32,312 bases of DNA from Bacteroidaceae bacterium. Lineage in GTDB: Bacteria > Bacteroidota > Bacteroidia > Bacteroidales > Bacteroidaceae. The first letter of the stretch is position 1, and each line of letters begins with the position of its first letter. The notes under the pieces were generated by a model. The model was not told the origin of the DNA. It was given only the letters and a program-made list of their open reading frames with translations, and did not search any database. Below, piece after piece: positions 1 through 30,276 of this stretch. The position numbers and the translations under genes are program-made. Where the stretch lies: positions 1-32,312 of the forward strand of contig JAFZPZ010000080.1 of the NCBI GenBank assembly GCA_017552435.1, in the 5' to 3' direction.

Positions 1-154
1 ACCCAGATAAAAGCTCACAGCCACACCATCAATTCTTTTCAGAATTCAACCTAACCAGAAGAAAAACCGAGAAAACATGTTCGTTTACTATTTACGATTT
101 ATCTCTCATTTATCATTTAGAGCTTTGCTTGCAAGGTGGTTTTTAATGTTCTTC

Positions 155-277
155 TTTTTCTGGTGTTTTAGCCGTAAGACTGTTTTTCGATATGTCTGGC
201 AGAGAAGGGAAGTTTACTTGGATTCTCTGACGGACAGATTGAAAAAGTGTGAGTGTAACTCATAAACGCCAGAAAAA
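155..277 (+). ncRNA. candidate structured RNA, copy 1
   Basis: No coding potential is evident, but the segment folds into a closed multi-stem structure. P1 pairs 155-168 with 264-277 (14 pairs, one G-U). P2 pairs 183-198 with 231-246 (one A-G mismatch, two G-U). P3 pairs 200-206 with 223-229 (7 pairs), with an inner AAGT-tt-ACTT hairpin at 210-219. P4 pairs 249-253 with 259-263. A second copy at 521-642 keeps the same stems with different bases. Sequence similarity to copy 2 continues past P1, ending in a shared block at 307-329. All non-Watson-Crick pairs, apart from true mismatches, are G-U when read on the plus strand, which is why plus is chosen. I do not recognise the RNA family. It could instead be a mobile single-stranded DNA element. 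Confidence 0.45.
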
Positions 278-520
278 GGGTTTTCTCTTGTTTTTGTTTA
301 AATCAGACACAGAGTTTTGCAAGTGAGCCGAAAAATTGTTTCTAAAAGGCTGTGATAGTTTTGGTATTCACATCGTAATAGTATTTTTCACACTGATCTT
401 TCACCGGTGCAAAATTAAACAATATACCTATCGGGGTGTTAGCATTCATCCTAACCTTTTTTGAGATAACGATGTAATCAAACCAATTATTGTGCTATAA
501 TAATTGTTTTCTTGGTTTTT
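278..520. other. gene-free spacer between the two RNA-like copies
   Basis: No open frame here looks like a real gene. The spacer holds a minus-strand promoter-like box at 410-417 and a perfect 7-bp inverted repeat (AATTATT / AATAATT, 485-491 with 499-505). On the plus strand that repeat is followed by a T-rich run leading into the second RNA-like copy. The first part (278-329) still resembles the sequence downstream of copy 2. Positions 1-154 likewise show no gene, only a short hairpin at 31-46 (AATTCT-tttc-AGAATT). Confidence 0.5.
410..417 (-). promoter_or_regulatory. possible Bacteroidetes -7 box (TAATTTTG)
   Basis: On the minus strand the sequence reads TAATTTTGC, which fits the Bacteroidetes sigma-factor -7 consensus TAnnTTTG. 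Transcription would start near 404 and run leftward through RNA-like copy 1 and out of the window. No convincing TTTG -33 element was found, so this is a weak call. Confidence 0.3.
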
Positions 521-642
521 CTTTTCTGGTGTTGTAGCCGTAGGCTGTTTTCTATTCGTGCGGCAGCGAAGACAAGTGAACTTGGATTCGATAATGCATG
601 AATGGAAAACGTATGGGGTGTAACCCATCAACAACAGAAAAG
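521..642 (+). ncRNA. candidate structured RNA, copy 2
   Basis: This is the second copy of the element at 155-277, about 365 bp away. P1 pairs 521-534 with 629-642 (13 of 14). P2 pairs 547-561 with 596-610, 15 consecutive pairs including two G-U. P3 is shortened to CGAA/TTCG (567-570 with 587-590). The inner AAGT-ga-ACTT hairpin is kept at 574-583, and P4 is ATGGG/CCCAT (613-617 with 624-628). Against copy 1, several pairs change on both sides: A-T to C-G in P3, A-T to G-C in P4, T-A to G-C in P1. Downstream similarity runs to 669-691, overlapping the stop codon and last codons of gtrA. The family is not recognised. Confidence 0.45.
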
Positions 643-681
643 GGTTATTGAGGTTTTGGTTTTAAGTAACACAGATTTTTA

Positions 682-1098
682 CTAGTGAGCCTTTTTCTTG
701 GAGTACTTCACTACAGTTCGGATGACGAGGTAGTTTGTGATGGCACTAATGACTGCCATCGGGAGATAGGCGATGGAATCCTTCAGACCGAGTATCTCGA
801 CAAATAGCATCATGAGTCCCATTCGCACAACGAATAGATTGAACATGTGCGCTCCGACGATGCCAACAAGGTTTAGTACGGATGACTCTGTACGGAAGGT
901 CCAATAGACGGTCAGCAGATAGTTGACGCAGAGGGAAATGAGATAGCCCGAAACAAGTGCTACCTGATAGGGGGCAAAAAGACGCACAACATAGAATATC
1001 GCAGCGTCTATCAGCGCACAGGTCCCGCCTACAATGCAAAAGCGGATGAACTGTTGCATCTCTTTCTGGCTCAAAAGCGCTTTAATCTTACCTATCAT
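682..1098 (-). CDS. GtrA-like membrane protein
   Basis: A 138-residue protein with four hydrophobic helices and a short basic C-terminus, the normal size and layout of the GtrA/DPMS flippase-like family. Members act with polyprenyl-phosphate glycosyltransferases and are thought to move the lipid-linked sugar across the inner membrane or to anchor the synthase. It begins 20 bp after the DPM1-like glycosyltransferase stop, so the two are probably co-transcribed and work together. The early RFCIVGG motif is typical of the family. It is the last gene of the minus-strand envelope operon. Its stop codon lies inside the region of similarity shared with the RNA-like repeat copies. Confidence 0.85.
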   Translation of the reverse strand: MIGKIKALLSQKEMQQFIRFCIVGGTCALIDAAIFYVVRLFAPYQVALVSGYLISLCVNYLLTVYWTFRTESSVLNLVGIVGAHMFNLFVVRMGLMMLFVEILGLKDSIAYLPMAVISAITNYLVIRTVVKYSKKKAH

Positions 1099-4479: not shown

Positions 4480-7107
4480 TTAGAATTCCTGTCCGAGAAT
4501 GAAGTGGAAATGACTTCCTGAGTAAGTTTTGCTACCGAATACTTTGTCGAATCCGTATGCCCAGTCAACACCAATCAGGCCAACCATAGGCAAGAATATA
4601 CGTACGCCGACTCCGAGTGAGCGTTTCATGTCCAGTGGATTGAAGTCCCCGATTTTGTTCCATGCGTTTCCGCCCTCTGCGAAGGCAAGACCGTAGATAT
4701 TGGTGCTAGTACTCAGCATGAAGGGGTATCGCAGTTCCACGGTGAAGCGGTCGTATGCATAGCCGGATTCACCTCTTGGCGTGAGCGCACCATTGTCATA
4801 GCCTCGCATACCAATCGTCTCGGTAGCGTAGGTCGAGCTATAGCCGCTGGTTCCATCTCCGCCAACGTAGAATGTCTCGAAGGGCGAAGGCTTGTTCTTG
4901 TTATAGTGTCCCAGTATGCCGAATTCCGCACGGGTCATCAAAACAAAGCATTTCTCTTTTCCACTCAGAGCAGTATAGGTACGGGCCTTGAACTTCCATT
5001 TGTGATATTCAATCCAATTGTACTTTTCCTGCATTTCTTTATTGTATGTCGGACTGTTGACGTTCGTTGCAAGGTTAGCATAGTCTTTGTTGACAAAGAG
5101 ACTATATGGGGGCGTCAGGGTGACATTCATCATGACCTCAGAACCCTTTCTGGGATAAATCTGATTGTCGGTACTGTTACGGCTCAGAGTAAAACCGAGG
5201 TTGATGTTGTTACAGTTGCCATTGGACATGAGGAAGTACTGCCAATTCTTTAGCATGTAGCGTGTATAGCTCAGTTCTGCATAGAGTGTGAACCAGTCAT
5301 CGGGCCAGCGCAGACGCTTACCCCATCCAAGCGATACGCCGAAGAGCATCACATACTTGTCGGGATCATAATAATTCTCGTAGTAATTGTATGTGCTGTT
5401 GCCATAGCCGTATAGATAACTGCTATAGTAATTGTTGTAGTAGGCAGAGTTGTAGTAATTGTCGCTTACGTCTGTTTGCTTCGAGAAGAAAGCGCCTAAG
5501 GAGAATGTGTTCGGACGCTTGCCACCAAACCAAGGATTGGTGTAGTTGATGCTGTATGACTGATAGTAACGTCCGTTCGTTTGTCCGCTAATACTGAATG
5601 TCTCGCTGTTGCCCATGGGCATTACGCCACGACGAAGTCCCTTCTTGCTGAAAAGATTGGCCATGCAGAAGTTGCTGAACTTTAGTCCTATGCGTCCGAT
5701 GACACCCGTCTGTCCGTAACCCAGAGAGAATTCAACCTGGTCATTGTTCTTGCTGATGAGCCCCCAATTGATGTCCACAGTGCCATTCACACGGTCGGGT
5801 TCCACTTTGGGGTCAATGTTTTCGTCGAAGTGCCCCAGCGAAGCAATTTCACGATATGAACGCATGAGGGCCTCTTTCGAGAAGAGGTCACCTGGTTTGT
5901 TGCGGAGCTCTCGGCGTATTACGTTTTCATAGACGCGATCGTTGCCACTGATGCGAACATGGCTTATGTGTGCTTGAGGTCCCTCGAAAATGCGAATCTC
6001 CAAATCAACGGAGTCGCCGACGATATTTGTCTCAACGGGATCGAGACGAGAAAAGACATAGCCGTTATTGTAATAAAGGTTGCCTACGGCATCATCATCG
6101 GTTGTCAGGCGTTCTTCAAGAAGCTTTTGGTTGTAAACATCACCCTTCTTCAATCGTAACAGTTGATTCAGACCGTCTGTCGGGTATAGTGTGTTACCGA
6201 CCCATTCTATGTTACGCACATAGTATTTTTGCCCTTCATCAACACAGATGTAGATGTTTACATCCTGGTCGTTGTAAGGCACAACGCTGTCTGAAACGAT
6301 GATAGCATCGCGATAACCCAATTCGCCGTACTTCGTGATCAAGTTCTCTTTTGCTTCATTGTATTTCGTGTCAATGAACTTCTTGCTTCTGAACCAACCG
6401 GACATAGAGTGCTTGTCGTGTATTTTCTTCAACACGCCAGGTTTAATGAGGTTGCCTTTAATCTTAGCTGTGCTCAGGTGTTTGTTGCCAGATATGTAGA
6501 TACGGTTAATTTTCACCTTGTCTTTCCTCTCGACATTAACATCCACGATAACCTTGTCGGGTGCTCCTGCATCCTCACGCTGCACAATATTAATCTCTGC
6601 ATTCTTGTATCCCTTTTCCGAGAAGTACCTCTTTCCAAGAATGATGGCGCGGTCAATCATATTGGGGGTCAACTGATTGTCCTTTATCAGCCCCATCTTT
6701 TCCTTTAAATCGTCCCGTTCATTCTTTTTCTTTACGCCATTGATGTTGATTTGTGAAATACGTGGACGTTGAGTGAGTTGTATGTGCAGGTATGCGGAAT
6801 CGCCCACGAGACTGTCAACGCTAATGGCTACATTGCTGAAGAGCCCGTTGCGCCAATAGCGTTTCACAGCGTTTGTTATTTCCTCGCTGGGAATCTCTAT
6901 CTTCTGTCCCTCACTTAGCCCGCTCAATCCGATGAGTAGATAATCGTCATAGTTCTTTACACCATCGACGGTAATTTTACCAATGTAATATTCCCGCGGC
7001 GTGCGACTATAGTCGATTTCGGGAGCCACTTCGCGTTGCCGTACTTGTGCATGCGCAGGGAGGAACAGCCCCCAGAGGGTAAATAATATAAGGAATGCTT
7101 TTTTCAA
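4480..7107 (-). CDS. bamA: outer-membrane protein assembly factor BamA
   Basis: An 875-residue BamA: signal peptide to about residue 21 (ends PAHAQ), tandem POTRA domains to roughly residue 440, then a 16-strand Omp85 barrel ending in a C-terminal Phe (FILGQEF). The barrel contains the conserved loop-6 motif as MRGYDNGA near residue 766. It inserts beta-barrel proteins into the outer membrane. At about residues 548-577 a surface loop is extremely rich in Tyr and Asn, which is unusual for the family. The stop of uppS is 11 bp upstream, and the ompH-like genes follow. Confidence 0.96.
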   Translation of the reverse strand: MKKAFLILFTLWGLFLPAHAQVRQREVAPEIDYSRTPREYYIGKITVDGVKNYDDYLLIGLSGLSEGQKIEIPSEEITNAVKRYWRNGLFSNVAISVDSLVGDSAYLHIQLTQRPRISQININGVKKKNERDDLKEKMGLIKDNQLTPNMIDRAIILGKRYFSEKGYKNAEINIVQREDAGAPDKVIVDVNVERKDKVKINRIYISGNKHLSTAKIKGNLIKPGVLKKIHDKHSMSGWFRSKKFIDTKYNEAKENLITKYGELGYRDAIIVSDSVVPYNDQDVNIYICVDEGQKYYVRNIEWVGNTLYPTDGLNQLLRLKKGDVYNQKLLEERLTTDDDAVGNLYYNNGYVFSRLDPVETNIVGDSVDLEIRIFEGPQAHISHVRISGNDRVYENVIRRELRNKPGDLFSKEALMRSYREIASLGHFDENIDPKVEPDRVNGTVDINWGLISKNNDQVEFSLGYGQTGVIGRIGLKFSNFCMANLFSKKGLRRGVMPMGNSETFSISGQTNGRYYQSYSINYTNPWFGGKRPNTFSLGAFFSKQTDVSDNYYNSAYYNNYYSSYLYGYGNSTYNYYENYYDPDKYVMLFGVSLGWGKRLRWPDDWFTLYAELSYTRYMLKNWQYFLMSNGNCNNINLGFTLSRNSTDNQIYPRKGSEVMMNVTLTPPYSLFVNKDYANLATNVNSPTYNKEMQEKYNWIEYHKWKFKARTYTALSGKEKCFVLMTRAEFGILGHYNKNKPSPFETFYVGGDGTSGYSSTYATETIGMRGYDNGALTPRGESGYAYDRFTVELRYPFMLSTSTNIYGLAFAEGGNAWNKIGDFNPLDMKRSLGVGVRIFLPMVGLIGVDWAYGFDKVFGSKTYSGSHFHFILGQEF

Positions 7108-26634: not shown

Positions 26635-29600
26635 TCATTTTATAATTTTCATAATCTTCACATGCGAGTTAAGACCTGAGGGGACTGGCTCCCAGCCGTC
26701 GTAAGTGGTGCGTTTGTAGTTGATATCCACCACGTTTATTTCGTTGAACTTGCGCCATTTCACGCCACGACGGTCGTATGCCGCAATGCGGTTGGCAGGC
26801 AGGTTGGTTACTTCTATACGGATGGTATTCTCACCCTCGTGCAGAATGTCGTCAAAGTCCAACGTAAATGGAACGCACCAGGCACAGCCCACGTAGGTAT
26901 CGTTGATATACACACGTGCTGACTCGCGGACATCACCCAAGTCAATCCGATAACGGCCCCCTTTCAACTCCCCCGAGGGGGAGAGATTAAACGTGGTCTC
27001 ATAAACACCAGTACCCATCAATTCATTGAGGCTATCGACAGGAAGACCCTCCCATGTCTTGAGTCCATCGATGGTTATTTCCTGATTTACGGCAGGCTGC
27101 GATTCGATGAATCTGAGCGACCACTTGTTGTTACTTAAATCAACAAGGGGTGATATTGCAACAAAATGCGACCTTTGTTGCGGTTGCAACTCATCAACAG
27201 GATAAGAAACTTTGGTCTCACCATTAGGCAAAGCGTCGATGAAACAACTCTCACCGCTGCGAAGCGAGACTATTTTACTAGCGCCCGTAGAAGCAAGACT
27301 AACTTTTCGATTAACATCGTTAGGGGTTAGATTCGATATAAAGTAACGGTACCCATCGCCTACGCGACGGCGTATCATCTTCATGTGAAGCTGGGTACGC
27401 AGCTCTTCCGGCTTCGCAAATTTGCCCAATTCATCGGCATTTATGTTATATACAATGGGGGCGCCTTGACGCTTCAGATTCTCTATATGCTGCTTTACCT
27501 CTTTGCTGAGTATGCAGTCTGGTGGCAGGATGAGTGCGGCATAGCGCGTACCTGCTGCTGTCTGCAGTTTGCCGTCAACGAAGGACGTGGTGAGCAGGTA
27601 TTTCTCCGAGATGTAATCACAATCGTAGCCCAACGAGTCAATTTTCAGGATGGAAGCGATGAACTCGGGGGCTTTCTTGTCCATCGAATTGATTTCGAAC
27701 AACATCAGACGTTTGTCGAGGTTTGTTCTCCACATGTTTCTTACGGGCAAGAACACGAGGAAATCGTTGTCGGGCTCTCCCTCCTGCAATCGCTGCTGGC
27801 AGAATTCGATGTAACCTGTCAGCATGGATGCGTCGCGCCAGATGGAGTTTGTGGGTGACATATCCACGGAGGCGTAGAATCGCCACCCGGGCCACGGGTC
27901 GTCCTTCGGAGAATAGCAGGCTCCATGGAAGAACATCCGGTTGACACCGGAACAGAACATCAGGTCAAGGTCGGGCTTCATCTGCGACAACGAGGTGCGG
28001 AAATGTTCCGTCAGCCATGTAAAAGTTTCGCTCGAAACAAGCGGTTTACCTGTGATGTGGGCTGCAGAGGAGGCGTATTTCAGCATCGAGAGGTCGGAAT
28101 AGTTCTTCCGAGTCATCCCTGGGTCTGTGCGCAGGCCTTTGATGCCGAACTCAGAAAGTCCGAAGCCTTCTATCTCGGGAATGTCAACTGCGGCATAAAT
28201 ATCAATAAGGTTCGCTGGCGATCCGTGTGCCTGATTCCGCACCTTCACACCGCGTTCGTGGCTCCACCTTACCCATTGCTCCGTAAAATTCTTCAGGAGC
28301 AGGTCGGAAAGCGTCTCGCGATAGTCGCTGATTACCTGGGCATCGCCATCGATGAATTCTTGCAATTTGTCTTCCAATCGGTATCCGCGACGTGCCTCGA
28401 ATTCCTTTGGCAATGTGGGCGTCCAGTCAGCTCCGAACACCTCGTAGGAATCGTTGAAAAAAGTTGCAGGCATCGGTGCACCGGAAGACTGAAAAGCCCG
28501 ATCAAACCGCGATAAATAATGCGCCACAGCTGTAGAATCAAAATGGTCTATCACATAACCCTCACCACCTGGTGCAGCCCGCTTCACCATCTGGCGCGTG
28601 CGACTTTCGTAGAGTGCTATCACACGACGTTTTCCCTTTACATGGCTCTTGAAATCCTTCTGGACTATCAGGCGGGCAAACTTCTGTTCCTTCTGTGGCG
28701 CAGGGAGCGTGATGTTCTTTGCTAGCTTGCTATCGACCAGAGAATCAACAACGACCAACTTGCATGCTGCTTCCGATAGAGGCGTCTCAGGTGAACCAAA
28801 CGGCCAACCCGTCCCTAAATTCATATCTATCTGTATGCCAAGACGATTACCCTCGCTGATGGTATATTCCAGCATCTTCATCCATTTTGGCGAGAGGAAG
28901 GAAATGTTGTTGGCATCGTTGCCTTGAACGCCGTACAGGGGTGTAATCTCTAAGGTTCCGATGCCGTGCGATGCCATCTGTTCCATCTGCCAGCTCAGGC
29001 CCTGTTCGGTAACAGCAGAACCCAACCACCACCAGCGGGCGCCAGCAGACCCTCTCCTGCCCTCCCTCAAAGGGAGGGAGTCATTAAGCTTCCCCTTTAA
29101 GGGGAGGTTTAGTAGGGTCTTATAGTATTCCACTGCCCCCAATAGCACGCAACCTGCTCCGTAGTCTTCAAAATCAGGAACACTGGTGTAGGTCACAGGT
29201 TGTCCATCCTTTGGTTCCTTGCCTGTACCCTGCAAATAACCGATGAAACCGTTAGAATGTACTGCCGAAGCAACAGCTTTCCATGCCTTGTCTGTTGCTG
29301 CACGATACTCGTCGGCAGGAAGCAATCCGTTACGCACGCCCCATGCCATTCCCATCAGGAAGAGAGCCGTCCCTGAAGTCTCGGGACCACCGAATGTGGC
29401 AGGCGACATCAAGCTGACATTCCAGAAGCCATCCTCACGCTGACATTTCAGTAAGGCTTTCATCATTGCTTTGTAATCAGCCTTCAGCTCCTCAAGGAAA
29501 GCGCGAACATCCTTATTCCCCCTAAAGGGGGTTAGGGGGTCCATCGTTCTCACCAGAGCAGCTACTACCCAGCCGTTACCACGGCTCCAATAACAGTTCT

Positions 29601-30276
29601 GCCCGTCGCTCTCCTTGTATGGGGGAACGAAGTCGGCATCACGCCACCATAGGCCTTCTTTGGCGTTCCACAGCCCTCCACCACACTTGTTGCGCGACCA
29701 TTCATAGCAGTCGCGGGCAAAGAGGATGTAACGTGTATCGCCAGTAATCTGGTACATCTTCGCGTATGCCGGCATTGCCATCTGTATGGCATCAATCCAA
29801 GTCCAGTAGTCAACACGTCCCTGCGCCATTTGCTTCTGCGCATTAGCGAAGCAACTGTCTAACATCGTACATTCATTCCCCCTAAAGGGGGTTAGGGGGT
29901 CCTGTCCATTGTCAATTAAATCATAGCGTTCCAGGTAGGTCTGCATGCAGCACTGGTCATCGGCATTCGTCGTCTTGGTGCCATTACGTGGTGTCCACTT
30001 ATGAAAATTAGCCCATTCATCGACATAATTTATATACTCTGGCCGAGGATCTATGCCATAAAGCGCCATCAGTCCCTCGTAATACACCCCACGTGTCCAA
30101 AGGGAGCTGGGACGTCTTCTGCCCACGAAAGTATCCTTGGTAGGGTCGGGCCACTTTTGGACAAAGTAATTATTCACGCGACGAGCTACATCCAGCACGT
30201 CGTCTGCATTCTGAGCCGCAGCAGGCATTACCGCCAGAGCGATAAAAGCAAATATTATGGATAGTTTTTTAATCAT
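26635..30276 (-). CDS. GH105-GH106 fusion, rhamnogalacturonan-degrading enzyme
   Basis: A 1213-residue exported protein (signal peptide ending PAAAQ at residue 22). Residues about 23-390 form a GH105 unsaturated (rhamno)galacturonyl hydrolase with TWIDAIQMAMPA (candidate catalytic Asp162) and WSRGNGWVVAALV. Residues about 413-1213 form a GH106 alpha-L-rhamnosidase beginning WWWLGSAVTEQG and SHGIGTLEITPLYGVQG, ending in a jelly-roll carbohydrate-binding region (GTGVYETTFNL, ARVYINDTYVG). Palindromic repeat DNA is read in frame at about 126-132, 246-252, 391-410 (the fusion junction) and near residue 1100. The two activities would sequentially remove unsaturated uronic acid and rhamnose from rhamnogalacturonan oligomers. 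Confidence 0.9.
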   Translation of the reverse strand: MIKKLSIIFAFIALAVMPAAAQNADDVLDVARRVNNYFVQKWPDPTKDTFVGRRRPSSLWTRGVYYEGLMALYGIDPRPEYINYVDEWANFHKWTPRNGTKTTNADDQCCMQTYLERYDLIDNGQDPLTPFRGNECTMLDSCFANAQKQMAQGRVDYWTWIDAIQMAMPAYAKMYQITGDTRYILFARDCYEWSRNKCGGGLWNAKEGLWWRDADFVPPYKESDGQNCYWSRGNGWVVAALVRTMDPLTPFRGNKDVRAFLEELKADYKAMMKALLKCQREDGFWNVSLMSPATFGGPETSGTALFLMGMAWGVRNGLLPADEYRAATDKAWKAVASAVHSNGFIGYLQGTGKEPKDGQPVTYTSVPDFEDYGAGCVLLGAVEYYKTLLNLPLKGKLNDSLPLREGRRGSAGARWWWLGSAVTEQGLSWQMEQMASHGIGTLEITPLYGVQGNDANNISFLSPKWMKMLEYTISEGNRLGIQIDMNLGTGWPFGSPETPLSEAACKLVVVDSLVDSKLAKNITLPAPQKEQKFARLIVQKDFKSHVKGKRRVIALYESRTRQMVKRAAPGGEGYVIDHFDSTAVAHYLSRFDRAFQSSGAPMPATFFNDSYEVFGADWTPTLPKEFEARRGYRLEDKLQEFIDGDAQVISDYRETLSDLLLKNFTEQWVRWSHERGVKVRNQAHGSPANLIDIYAAVDIPEIEGFGLSEFGIKGLRTDPGMTRKNYSDLSMLKYASSAAHITGKPLVSSETFTWLTEHFRTSLSQMKPDLDLMFCSGVNRMFFHGACYSPKDDPWPGWRFYASVDMSPTNSIWRDASMLTGYIEFCQQRLQEGEPDNDFLVFLPVRNMWRTNLDKRLMLFEINSMDKKAPEFIASILKIDSLGYDCDYISEKYLLTTSFVDGKLQTAAGTRYAALILPPDCILSKEVKQHIENLKRQGAPIVYNINADELGKFAKPEELRTQLHMKMIRRRVGDGYRYFISNLTPNDVNRKVSLASTGASKIVSLRSGESCFIDALPNGETKVSYPVDELQPQQRSHFVAISPLVDLSNNKWSLRFIESQPAVNQEITIDGLKTWEGLPVDSLNELMGTGVYETTFNLSPSGELKGGRYRIDLGDVRESARVYINDTYVGCAWCVPFTLDFDDILHEGENTIRIEVTNLPANRIAAYDRRGVKWRKFNEINVVDINYKRTTYDGWEPVPSGLNSHVKIMKIIK
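26956..26984. repeat. G/C palindromic repeat in the GH106 domain
   Basis: CTCCCCC-GA-GGGGGAG (26968-26983) is preceded by a CCCCCTTTC arm. The coding frame reads it as SPSGELKGG inside the C-terminal jelly-roll. Confidence 0.75.
29051..29110. repeat. two palindromic repeats at the GH105-GH106 junction
   Basis: Two adjacent palindromes, CTCCCT-CAA-AGGGAG around 29061-29081 and CTTCCCC-TTTAA-GGGGAGG around 29091-29109, are read in frame as LPLKGKLNDSLPLREG. They lie exactly between the GH105 and GH106 domains. Confidence 0.85.
29518..29542. repeat. 25-bp palindromic repeat in GH105 (copy A)
   Basis: CCCCC-TAAA-GGGGG followed by TTAGGGGGTCC, identical over 25 bp to the copy at 29878-29902. Read on the minus strand in frame it gives DPLTPFRG, interrupting a helix-connecting region of GH105. 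Confidence 0.9.
29878..29902. repeat. 25-bp palindromic repeat in GH105 (copy B)
   Basis: Identical to the 25-bp repeat at 29518-29542 in the same orientation and reading frame, again giving DPLTPFRG. It is flanked by a TGTCCATTGTCAATTAAATC stretch of the kind used in other tandem repeats here. Confidence 0.9.

Follow-up and report, generated by a model that had tools for sequence, protein, structure and literature searches.

Four-way-junction modules linked to a GxxExxY nuclease-like gene as probable ends of a mobile element in Bacteroidales

Introduction

Integron attC sites are variable in sequence and conserve a single-strand fold, a single imperfect hairpin, that is recognized by its shape, and IscB/TnpB elements carry structured RNAs beside a nuclease gene. 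Among short repeats, the available excerpts of three reports (PMC2817692, PMC3733652, PMC8266576) describe the REP/BIME sequences and their RAYT partners, in which a 20-40-bp palindrome bears a GTAG or CGTC tag, and the accessible part of a further one (PMC4596501) describes BrickBuilt of Porphyromonas gingivalis as a MITE, which is short, multi-copy and non-coding, with inverted termini. In the published material available to us, no element of the kind presented below was found among the matches listed, nor was any account of GxxExxY proteins as part of a mobile element or any paper on their function.

In this study, we focus on a 32,312-nucleotide stretch of a Bacteroidaceae genome (assembly GCA_017552435.1, contig JAFZPZ010000080.1, positions 1 to 32,312), hereafter the window. 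Near its start lie two copies of a module of about 120 nt, here called a head, of a type that is scattered through Bacteroidales genomes and frequently forms divergent pairs with flanking T-rich motifs. By analogy, heads may be set beside attC sites, sharing a variable sequence with a conserved fold and differing in that they form four-way junctions rather than a single hairpin. On balance, we consider it probable that heads are terminal modules of a mobile element, recognized by shape, with a GxxExxY nuclease as the candidate mobilizing enzyme.

Organization of the locus

The element-derived sequence of the window is arranged as follows.

1-77, minus strand: 5' half of another head, truncated at the beginning of the contig, and its T-rich 5' flank
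78-154, no strand: A/T-rich spacer with a divergent head on either side, read from the sequence
155-278, plus strand: head copy 1, a four-way junction (fold z -4.55), with a 96% copy at C35:36012-36193
279-329, plus strand: 3' T-rich flank and outer terminus ending in CACAGAGTTTTGCAAGTGAGCC, from pattern matches
342-440, minus strand: C-terminal remnant of a GxxExxY gene, 32 codons and stop, from tblastn
505-520, plus strand: T-rich 5' flank of copy 2, a motif common to other heads
521-642, plus strand: head copy 2, a four-way junction (fold z -6.30), with 74% identity to copy 1 where the two align
643-691, plus strand: 3' T-rich flank and outer terminus of copy 2, placed by the border of congener alignments

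The half head at the left edge corresponds, over 1-60 on the minus strand, to positions 1-58 of the covariance model R1 with the 3' end missing (24.5 bits, E 0.021 in a 317-kb search); this model was built from heads of other genomes, represents one subfamily and does not detect window copies 1 and 2. Positions 59-77 are an inverted repeat of 505-523, and the spacer resembles that of the head pair on contig C35 of the same genome, since the C35 query aligns straight through it (83% over window 54-329). A further head related to the window copies, on C65, is 84% identical. The outer-terminus pattern has nine matches in the genome and none with a reversed control, and the terminus block of 279-329 also trails heads at a similar distance in other copies. 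The initial annotation had described this region as having no gene, which the remnant at 342-440 contradicts: its translation, NTPIGILFNFAPVKDQCEKYYYDVNTKTITAF followed by a stop, is 87.5% identical over 32 amino acids to a GxxExxY protein (tblastn E 2e-14).

On the right, the convergent gtrA gene (682-1098, minus strand) takes its final codons and stop from the terminus of copy 2. At least 19 congener alignments of the gtrA-GT2 stretch, among the matches listed, start at window 689-700, and beyond the right border no element sequence was found within 70 nt at 11 congener loci. The best reading of the locus is a decayed, nested set of heads with a gene remnant, in which an old unit would have lost most of its gene, leaving the remnant and copy 2, and a gene-less pair (1-329) would have been added beside or into it. 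Far from these features, 26635-30276 on the minus strand encodes a 1213-amino-acid protein matching both Glyco_hydro_88 and Glyco_hydro_106, an apparent fusion of two carbohydrate-active domains.

Conserved fold of the heads

Both window copies are multi-stem structures, as originally proposed, and share a plan composed of a closing stem, a small hairpin, a long arm and a second hairpin that meet in a four-way junction. On the plus strand, none of 200 shuffled sequences matched the stability of either copy; the minus strands also fold well (z -5.10 and -6.81). All eight of the base pairs cited letter by letter in the initial annotation were read correctly. One of them, T168-A264 in copy 1 and G534-C629 in copy 2, covaries well among relatives (UA 5, CG 2, GC 1), and the minimum-energy fold of copy 1 on its own instead pairs A264 with T248. 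Another, A203-T226 and C567-G590, is paired in both window copies and lies outside the family consensus. Two counts required correction: the long-arm helix of copy 2, given as 15 continuous pairs, has 16, and the wobble pairs, given as about six, number five and three in the two folds.

The compensatory changes are borne out by an alignment of eight close relatives, which comprises the two window copies, two more heads of the same genome and four others. Both sides had changed at 14 of the 47 pairs, compared with 5.5 double-sided changes in shuffled alignments, none of which (500) reached this number, and 0-2 in slid controls. Of five covariation measures, the one for further pair types stayed at chance level, its value being reached in 58 of 500 shuffles. 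The fold is both present and under selection. A search of the whole window against Rfam 15 gave no match at gathering score, and a permissive search with ten loci and window 1-720 returned only matches below it. As to the suggested new RNA family, the structure, the covariation and a plus-strand bias hold; a free-standing RNA gene is not supported, because the heads are end modules of a mobile composite element.

Which strand folds was assessed on a wider set of heads. In 37 disjoint nearest-neighbor comparisons, 40 of 51 double changes at Watson-Crick pairs kept pairing, and one-sided changes gave G-U in 46 cases, A-C in 23 and other combinations in 84 (p 0.008 for the G-U bias). When every ordered pair at 70-80% identity was counted, a set whose members are not independent of each other, 1567 of 1947 double changes were kept, with 677 G-U and 359 A-C outcomes; a control slid by two positions kept 924 of 2191, with 2045 G-U and 1739 A-C. 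The sense fold was more stable than the antisense fold in 109 of 117 heads, and this margin exceeded the one seen in shuffled sequences in 95 of 117. For all three of these analyses, heads had been chosen by their sense-strand closing stem, which may slightly favor the sense strand. The T-rich strand is therefore favored for folding as one strand. A cruciform of double-stranded DNA should not prefer G-U over A-C, which makes RNA or single-stranded DNA the likelier form.

Distribution of the heads

Homologs of the heads were found in many other Bacteroidales genomes. A combined 5'-3' pattern applied to 84,980 species genomes returned 71 stretches. Bacteroidales records account for 65 of these, and many come from ruminant samples according to their titles; the six others were judged to be chance matches, five lacking a closing stem and one (L134) having one of only 100 nt. 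Two of three viral pattern stretches carry a head. A divergent pair, at L151:4505-4644 (minus) and 4740-4880 (plus), lies within a 72.8-kb IMG/VR contig that also bears phage-type genes of the PAPS reductase and DNA methyltransferase families.

In all, 143 heads of 112-140 nt were collected, of which 117 remained after removal of near-duplicates. The minimum-energy fold opens three branches above one closing stem in 110 of these 117, and 106 of the 110 lie inside the size limits of the plan. Alignments across subfamilies made with MAFFT (A3, A5) were structurally wrong and were not used. Conserved flanks accompany the heads, GTTTT-N-GGTTTTTC on the 5' side and AAAGGGTTTT-N3-GGTTTTTG on the 3' side, a conservation that is in part by construction, the pattern itself having been used to find heads. 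Divergent pairs with facing 5' ends number 40 as listed, at least two of these entries being one pair seen from two records.

Within the genome of the window, the 3'-flank pattern with one mismatch allowed gave 12 matches, compared with none for a reversed control. Since seven of these 12 markers are no more than 600 bp from the end of a contig, the true copy number is probably higher; the same association bears on assembly, and the window itself begins inside a head. A related exact pattern was positive in 19 of 301 genomes of the family, with 17 matches in a single one (G114). In the genus, the strict 3' motif occurs in 1 of 61 genomes, a misleadingly low figure, and DNA similarity to the C35 head revealed matches in nine further congeners (139 genomes).

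Several loci showed additional features. Two different heads of G114 (L063, about 305-541, and L068:1023-1245, both plus strand) carry similar A/T-rich insertions of about 100 nt, both located at the tip of the long arm, as though another element had the folded tip as its target. Four-helix-bundle genes (TIGR02436) occur on loci with head pairs at L034:3-374 and L074:3173-3733, both on the plus strand, and one of them has a 4helix_suffix domain. In the genome of the window, a cytosine methylase and an NgoBV-type restriction endonuclease (L010:4971-7128, plus strand) lie about 1 kb from a head.

Evidence for mobility

A gene-less pair of 448 bp on contig C113 (L011:3817-4264) sits at the stop codon of a gene and has an 8-bp target duplication, AACTTTTA, on both sides. 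The query for the empty site gave a match of any kind in 37 of 121 genomes, and at each of the four congener loci extending as far as the end of the gene (L254-L257), this end continues downstream without the element. The C113 pair is thus an insertion, and mobility has been demonstrated once. Its inverted terminal repeats, GGATTACCTGCAAAAACCTGTG and AGTTCACTTGCAAGACTCTGTG, are imperfect; similar ones occur in C35, and none was seen in many copies of other genera. The complete unit on C35 showed no target duplication and no empty site, congeners matching only parts of the flanking gene or the head. Among 43 pairs, exact matches of at least 7 nt at the two ends were few (7 seen, 2.9 expected), and no common target duplication emerged. 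The single proven insertion carries no gene, and movement was observed for none of the gene-bearing units. That gene-less divergent pairs of about 450 bp also move, in a MITE-like manner, is the best explanation of these data. An end of a known transposon had been named at the outset as the finding that would count against a new family: the heads do form the ends of a transposon-like element, and this element matched no known one.

The GxxExxY gene of complete units

A complete unit, about 1 kb long, consists of an outer T-rich terminus, a minus-strand head, a GxxExxY gene, a plus-strand head and a second outer terminus. The gene between the outward heads is single (145 codons in L110, L122 and L144), and no second gene was found there in the complete units viewed. 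It passes the cut-offs of both relevant families, with 110.2 bits for TIGR04256 (L035 gene, cut-off 35) and 111.4 bits for PF13366 (PDDEXK_3, cut-off 22).

The gene could be located at 58 GxxExxY loci. Eleven of these share 55% identity or more with gxx1, and 9 of the 11 have T-flanked heads, compared with 2 of the 47 others (Fisher p 3e-7); L220 and L222, at 55-56% identity, are without them. The T-flank filter was added because a bare scan for four-way junctions has a high background (12 of 30 Y1 loci). Of the flagged heads at GxxExxY loci, 16 of 18 point outward, and one of the two inward calls results from reading an outward site on the antisense strand. In a 61-row tree, the 13 genes labeled head-bearing fall in one clade of 14 (support 89/82), and the head label requires two changes, compared with 12.0 in shuffles (none of 500 as low). 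Heads and this gene clade are accordingly inherited together. The labels follow the T-flanked form, so that L106, L195, L131, L196 and L210 are marked "none" despite nearby pairs or model matches; those of L221 (left side), L218 and others were assigned partly by reading the sequence, and L200, L202 and L211-L213 had been excluded at the start.

Inverted T-rich flanks on both sides extend more widely, being found at 9 of 12 and 7 of 19 loci of the larger GxxExxY group around the head-bearing genes and at none of 25 other GxxExxY loci or 26 Y1 loci. Since these flanks are wider in distribution than the heads, T-flanked GxxExxY genes may have come first and heads been added later. Four-way modules that share the plan of the heads and have other flanks were also observed at L106:5820-5944 (minus) and 6593-6725 (plus), L137:1159-1288 (minus), L196:1523-1653 (plus) and L210:1256-1374 (minus), where they adjoin GxxExxY genes of other clades. 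The link between heads and GxxExxY genes may therefore extend beyond the T-flanked form, the same kind of module serving several clades.

The substitution pattern indicates that the gene is under purifying selection: of nine comparisons, three were free of synonymous saturation, and these gave dN/dS values of 0.079, 0.095 and 0.065. In six sequences from more than one GxxExxY clade, E41, D81, E91, K93, Q105 and Y109 (L110 numbering) are invariant; we take these to be putative catalytic residues of the PD-(D/E)XK type in a RecB/Cas4-like pattern, and the Q-x-x-x-Y motif presumably recalls the same nucleases. A GxxExxY gene of any kind (PF13366) was detected in 14 of the 19 pattern-positive genomes and in 16 of the 30 used for comparison, a difference that is not significant (p 0.23), so presence of the wide family says little; in 5 of the 19 genomes with heads, which are drafts, no GxxExxY gene was found. 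Elsewhere, relatives of the gene were found in three plasmid records (31-37% identity) and one viral contig (35%), and none in phages.

Mechanism and alternative explanations

In the reading we favor, with heads as shape-recognized ends and the GxxExxY nuclease as mobilizing enzyme, each head would act as a single T-rich strand folded into a four-way junction. The folded head would be recognized mainly by its shape, which would explain why head sequences diverge, and the nuclease would bind or cut either the folded head or the T-rich flank and so drive mobility, mobilizing gene-less copies in trans. Several points count against this model: a target duplication was seen in one unit only, the proven insertion has no gene, possession of any GxxExxY gene does not separate pattern-positive from comparison genomes, L220 and L222 are without T-flanked heads, both strands of the heads fold well, and, to our knowledge, a nuclease of the GxxExxY type acting as a lone transposase would be unusual. 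Its fullest form is put forward tentatively, namely that the element represents a categorically new mobile class, whose small GxxExxY nuclease recognizes, by shape and not by sequence, a four-way junction of about 120 nt at each end, formed by single-stranded DNA or by its RNA, and moves both itself and many gene-less copies.

The inverted outer termini and the 8-bp duplication are also ordinary transposon marks, and gene-less pairs occur in the five genomes of 19 without a detected GxxExxY gene. Both observations would suit a non-autonomous MITE that depends on a conventional DDE transposase supplied in trans and generating 8-bp duplications, with GxxExxY as cargo or accessory and with heads doing something else, such as insulation, transcript protection or replication stalling. 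We regard this as rather unlikely, given that no such transposase lies beside the loci viewed (the genome-wide search covered Y1 only) and that purifying selection together with clade-wide attachment to heads is not expected of chance cargo. The single-strand bias towards G-U, the constant length and plan, and the position of a structured module next to a nuclease gene could alternatively mean that heads are RNAs working with the nuclease as guide, cofactor or regulator, as in IscB/TnpB elements; however, each unit has two inverted heads, the T-rich flanks resemble DNA sites and no guide-like variable stretch was identified in the heads, and this explanation appears improbable.

Covariation and plus-strand bias are likewise what a free-standing regulatory RNA family with no link to mobility would display, but such a family is highly improbable here, being largely refuted by the empty sites and the target duplication and further opposed by the divergent pairs and by attachment to one gene clade. 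The least credible alternative, to which we assign almost no weight, is that heads are repeats of the REP/BIME type that a RAYT (Y1) transposase mobilizes. It would fit the palindromic folding and inverted pairing of the modules, and the lead came from one truncated RAYT-like frame without a Pfam match beside several heads in Prevotella sp. RUI435 (L082:110-373, plus strand). It was rejected by co-occurrence: Y1 genes are no commoner in pattern-positive genomes (7 of 19) than in those used for comparison (14 of 30; p 0.56), the two genomes richest in heads among those studied, that of the window and G114, have no Y1 genes, and a strict search of 30 Y1 loci detected no head, model R1 giving one weak match (L157, E 0.008).

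Should the nuclease have the role proposed, a function would be provided for the widespread, nuclease-like GxxExxY family, and the transposition of an element from structured single strands by a small PD-(D/E)XK enzyme becomes a testable proposition. The element also adds a case in which the ends retain a four-way-junction fold while their sequence drifts.

Comparison with known systems

While REP/BIME sequences and heads both occur as folded, inverted pairs between genes, and the former are thought, in the excerpts cited above, to move as single strands, heads are three to six times longer (112-140 nt), form a four-way junction rather than a simple hairpin and do not co-occur with Y1 genes. 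With IscB/TnpB elements, the likeness would lie in a structured module adjoining a nuclease gene within a mobile element; unlike in those systems, the nuclease is of an unrelated type, the modules are two and inverted, and no guide-like stretch was identified. The gene product itself belongs with the described GxxExxY proteins (TIGR04256/PF13366). MITEs such as BrickBuilt, as portrayed in the accessible part of that report, are the closest in behavior, being short, multi-copy and non-coding, with inverted termini and a Bacteroidales host, and gene-less pairs behave likewise: the 448-bp C113 pair is a short non-coding mobile insertion, and inverted terminal repeats, although imperfect, are present in C113 and C35. 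Compared with those MITEs, the ends here are four-way junctions of about 120 nt selected for folding, and the candidate autonomous parents are the gene-bearing units, a one-gene form with a nuclease and no transposase, whose enzyme is not a known transposase. In its behavior the element resembles a MITE family that has a one-gene parent, none of the known parents having been identified as its own.
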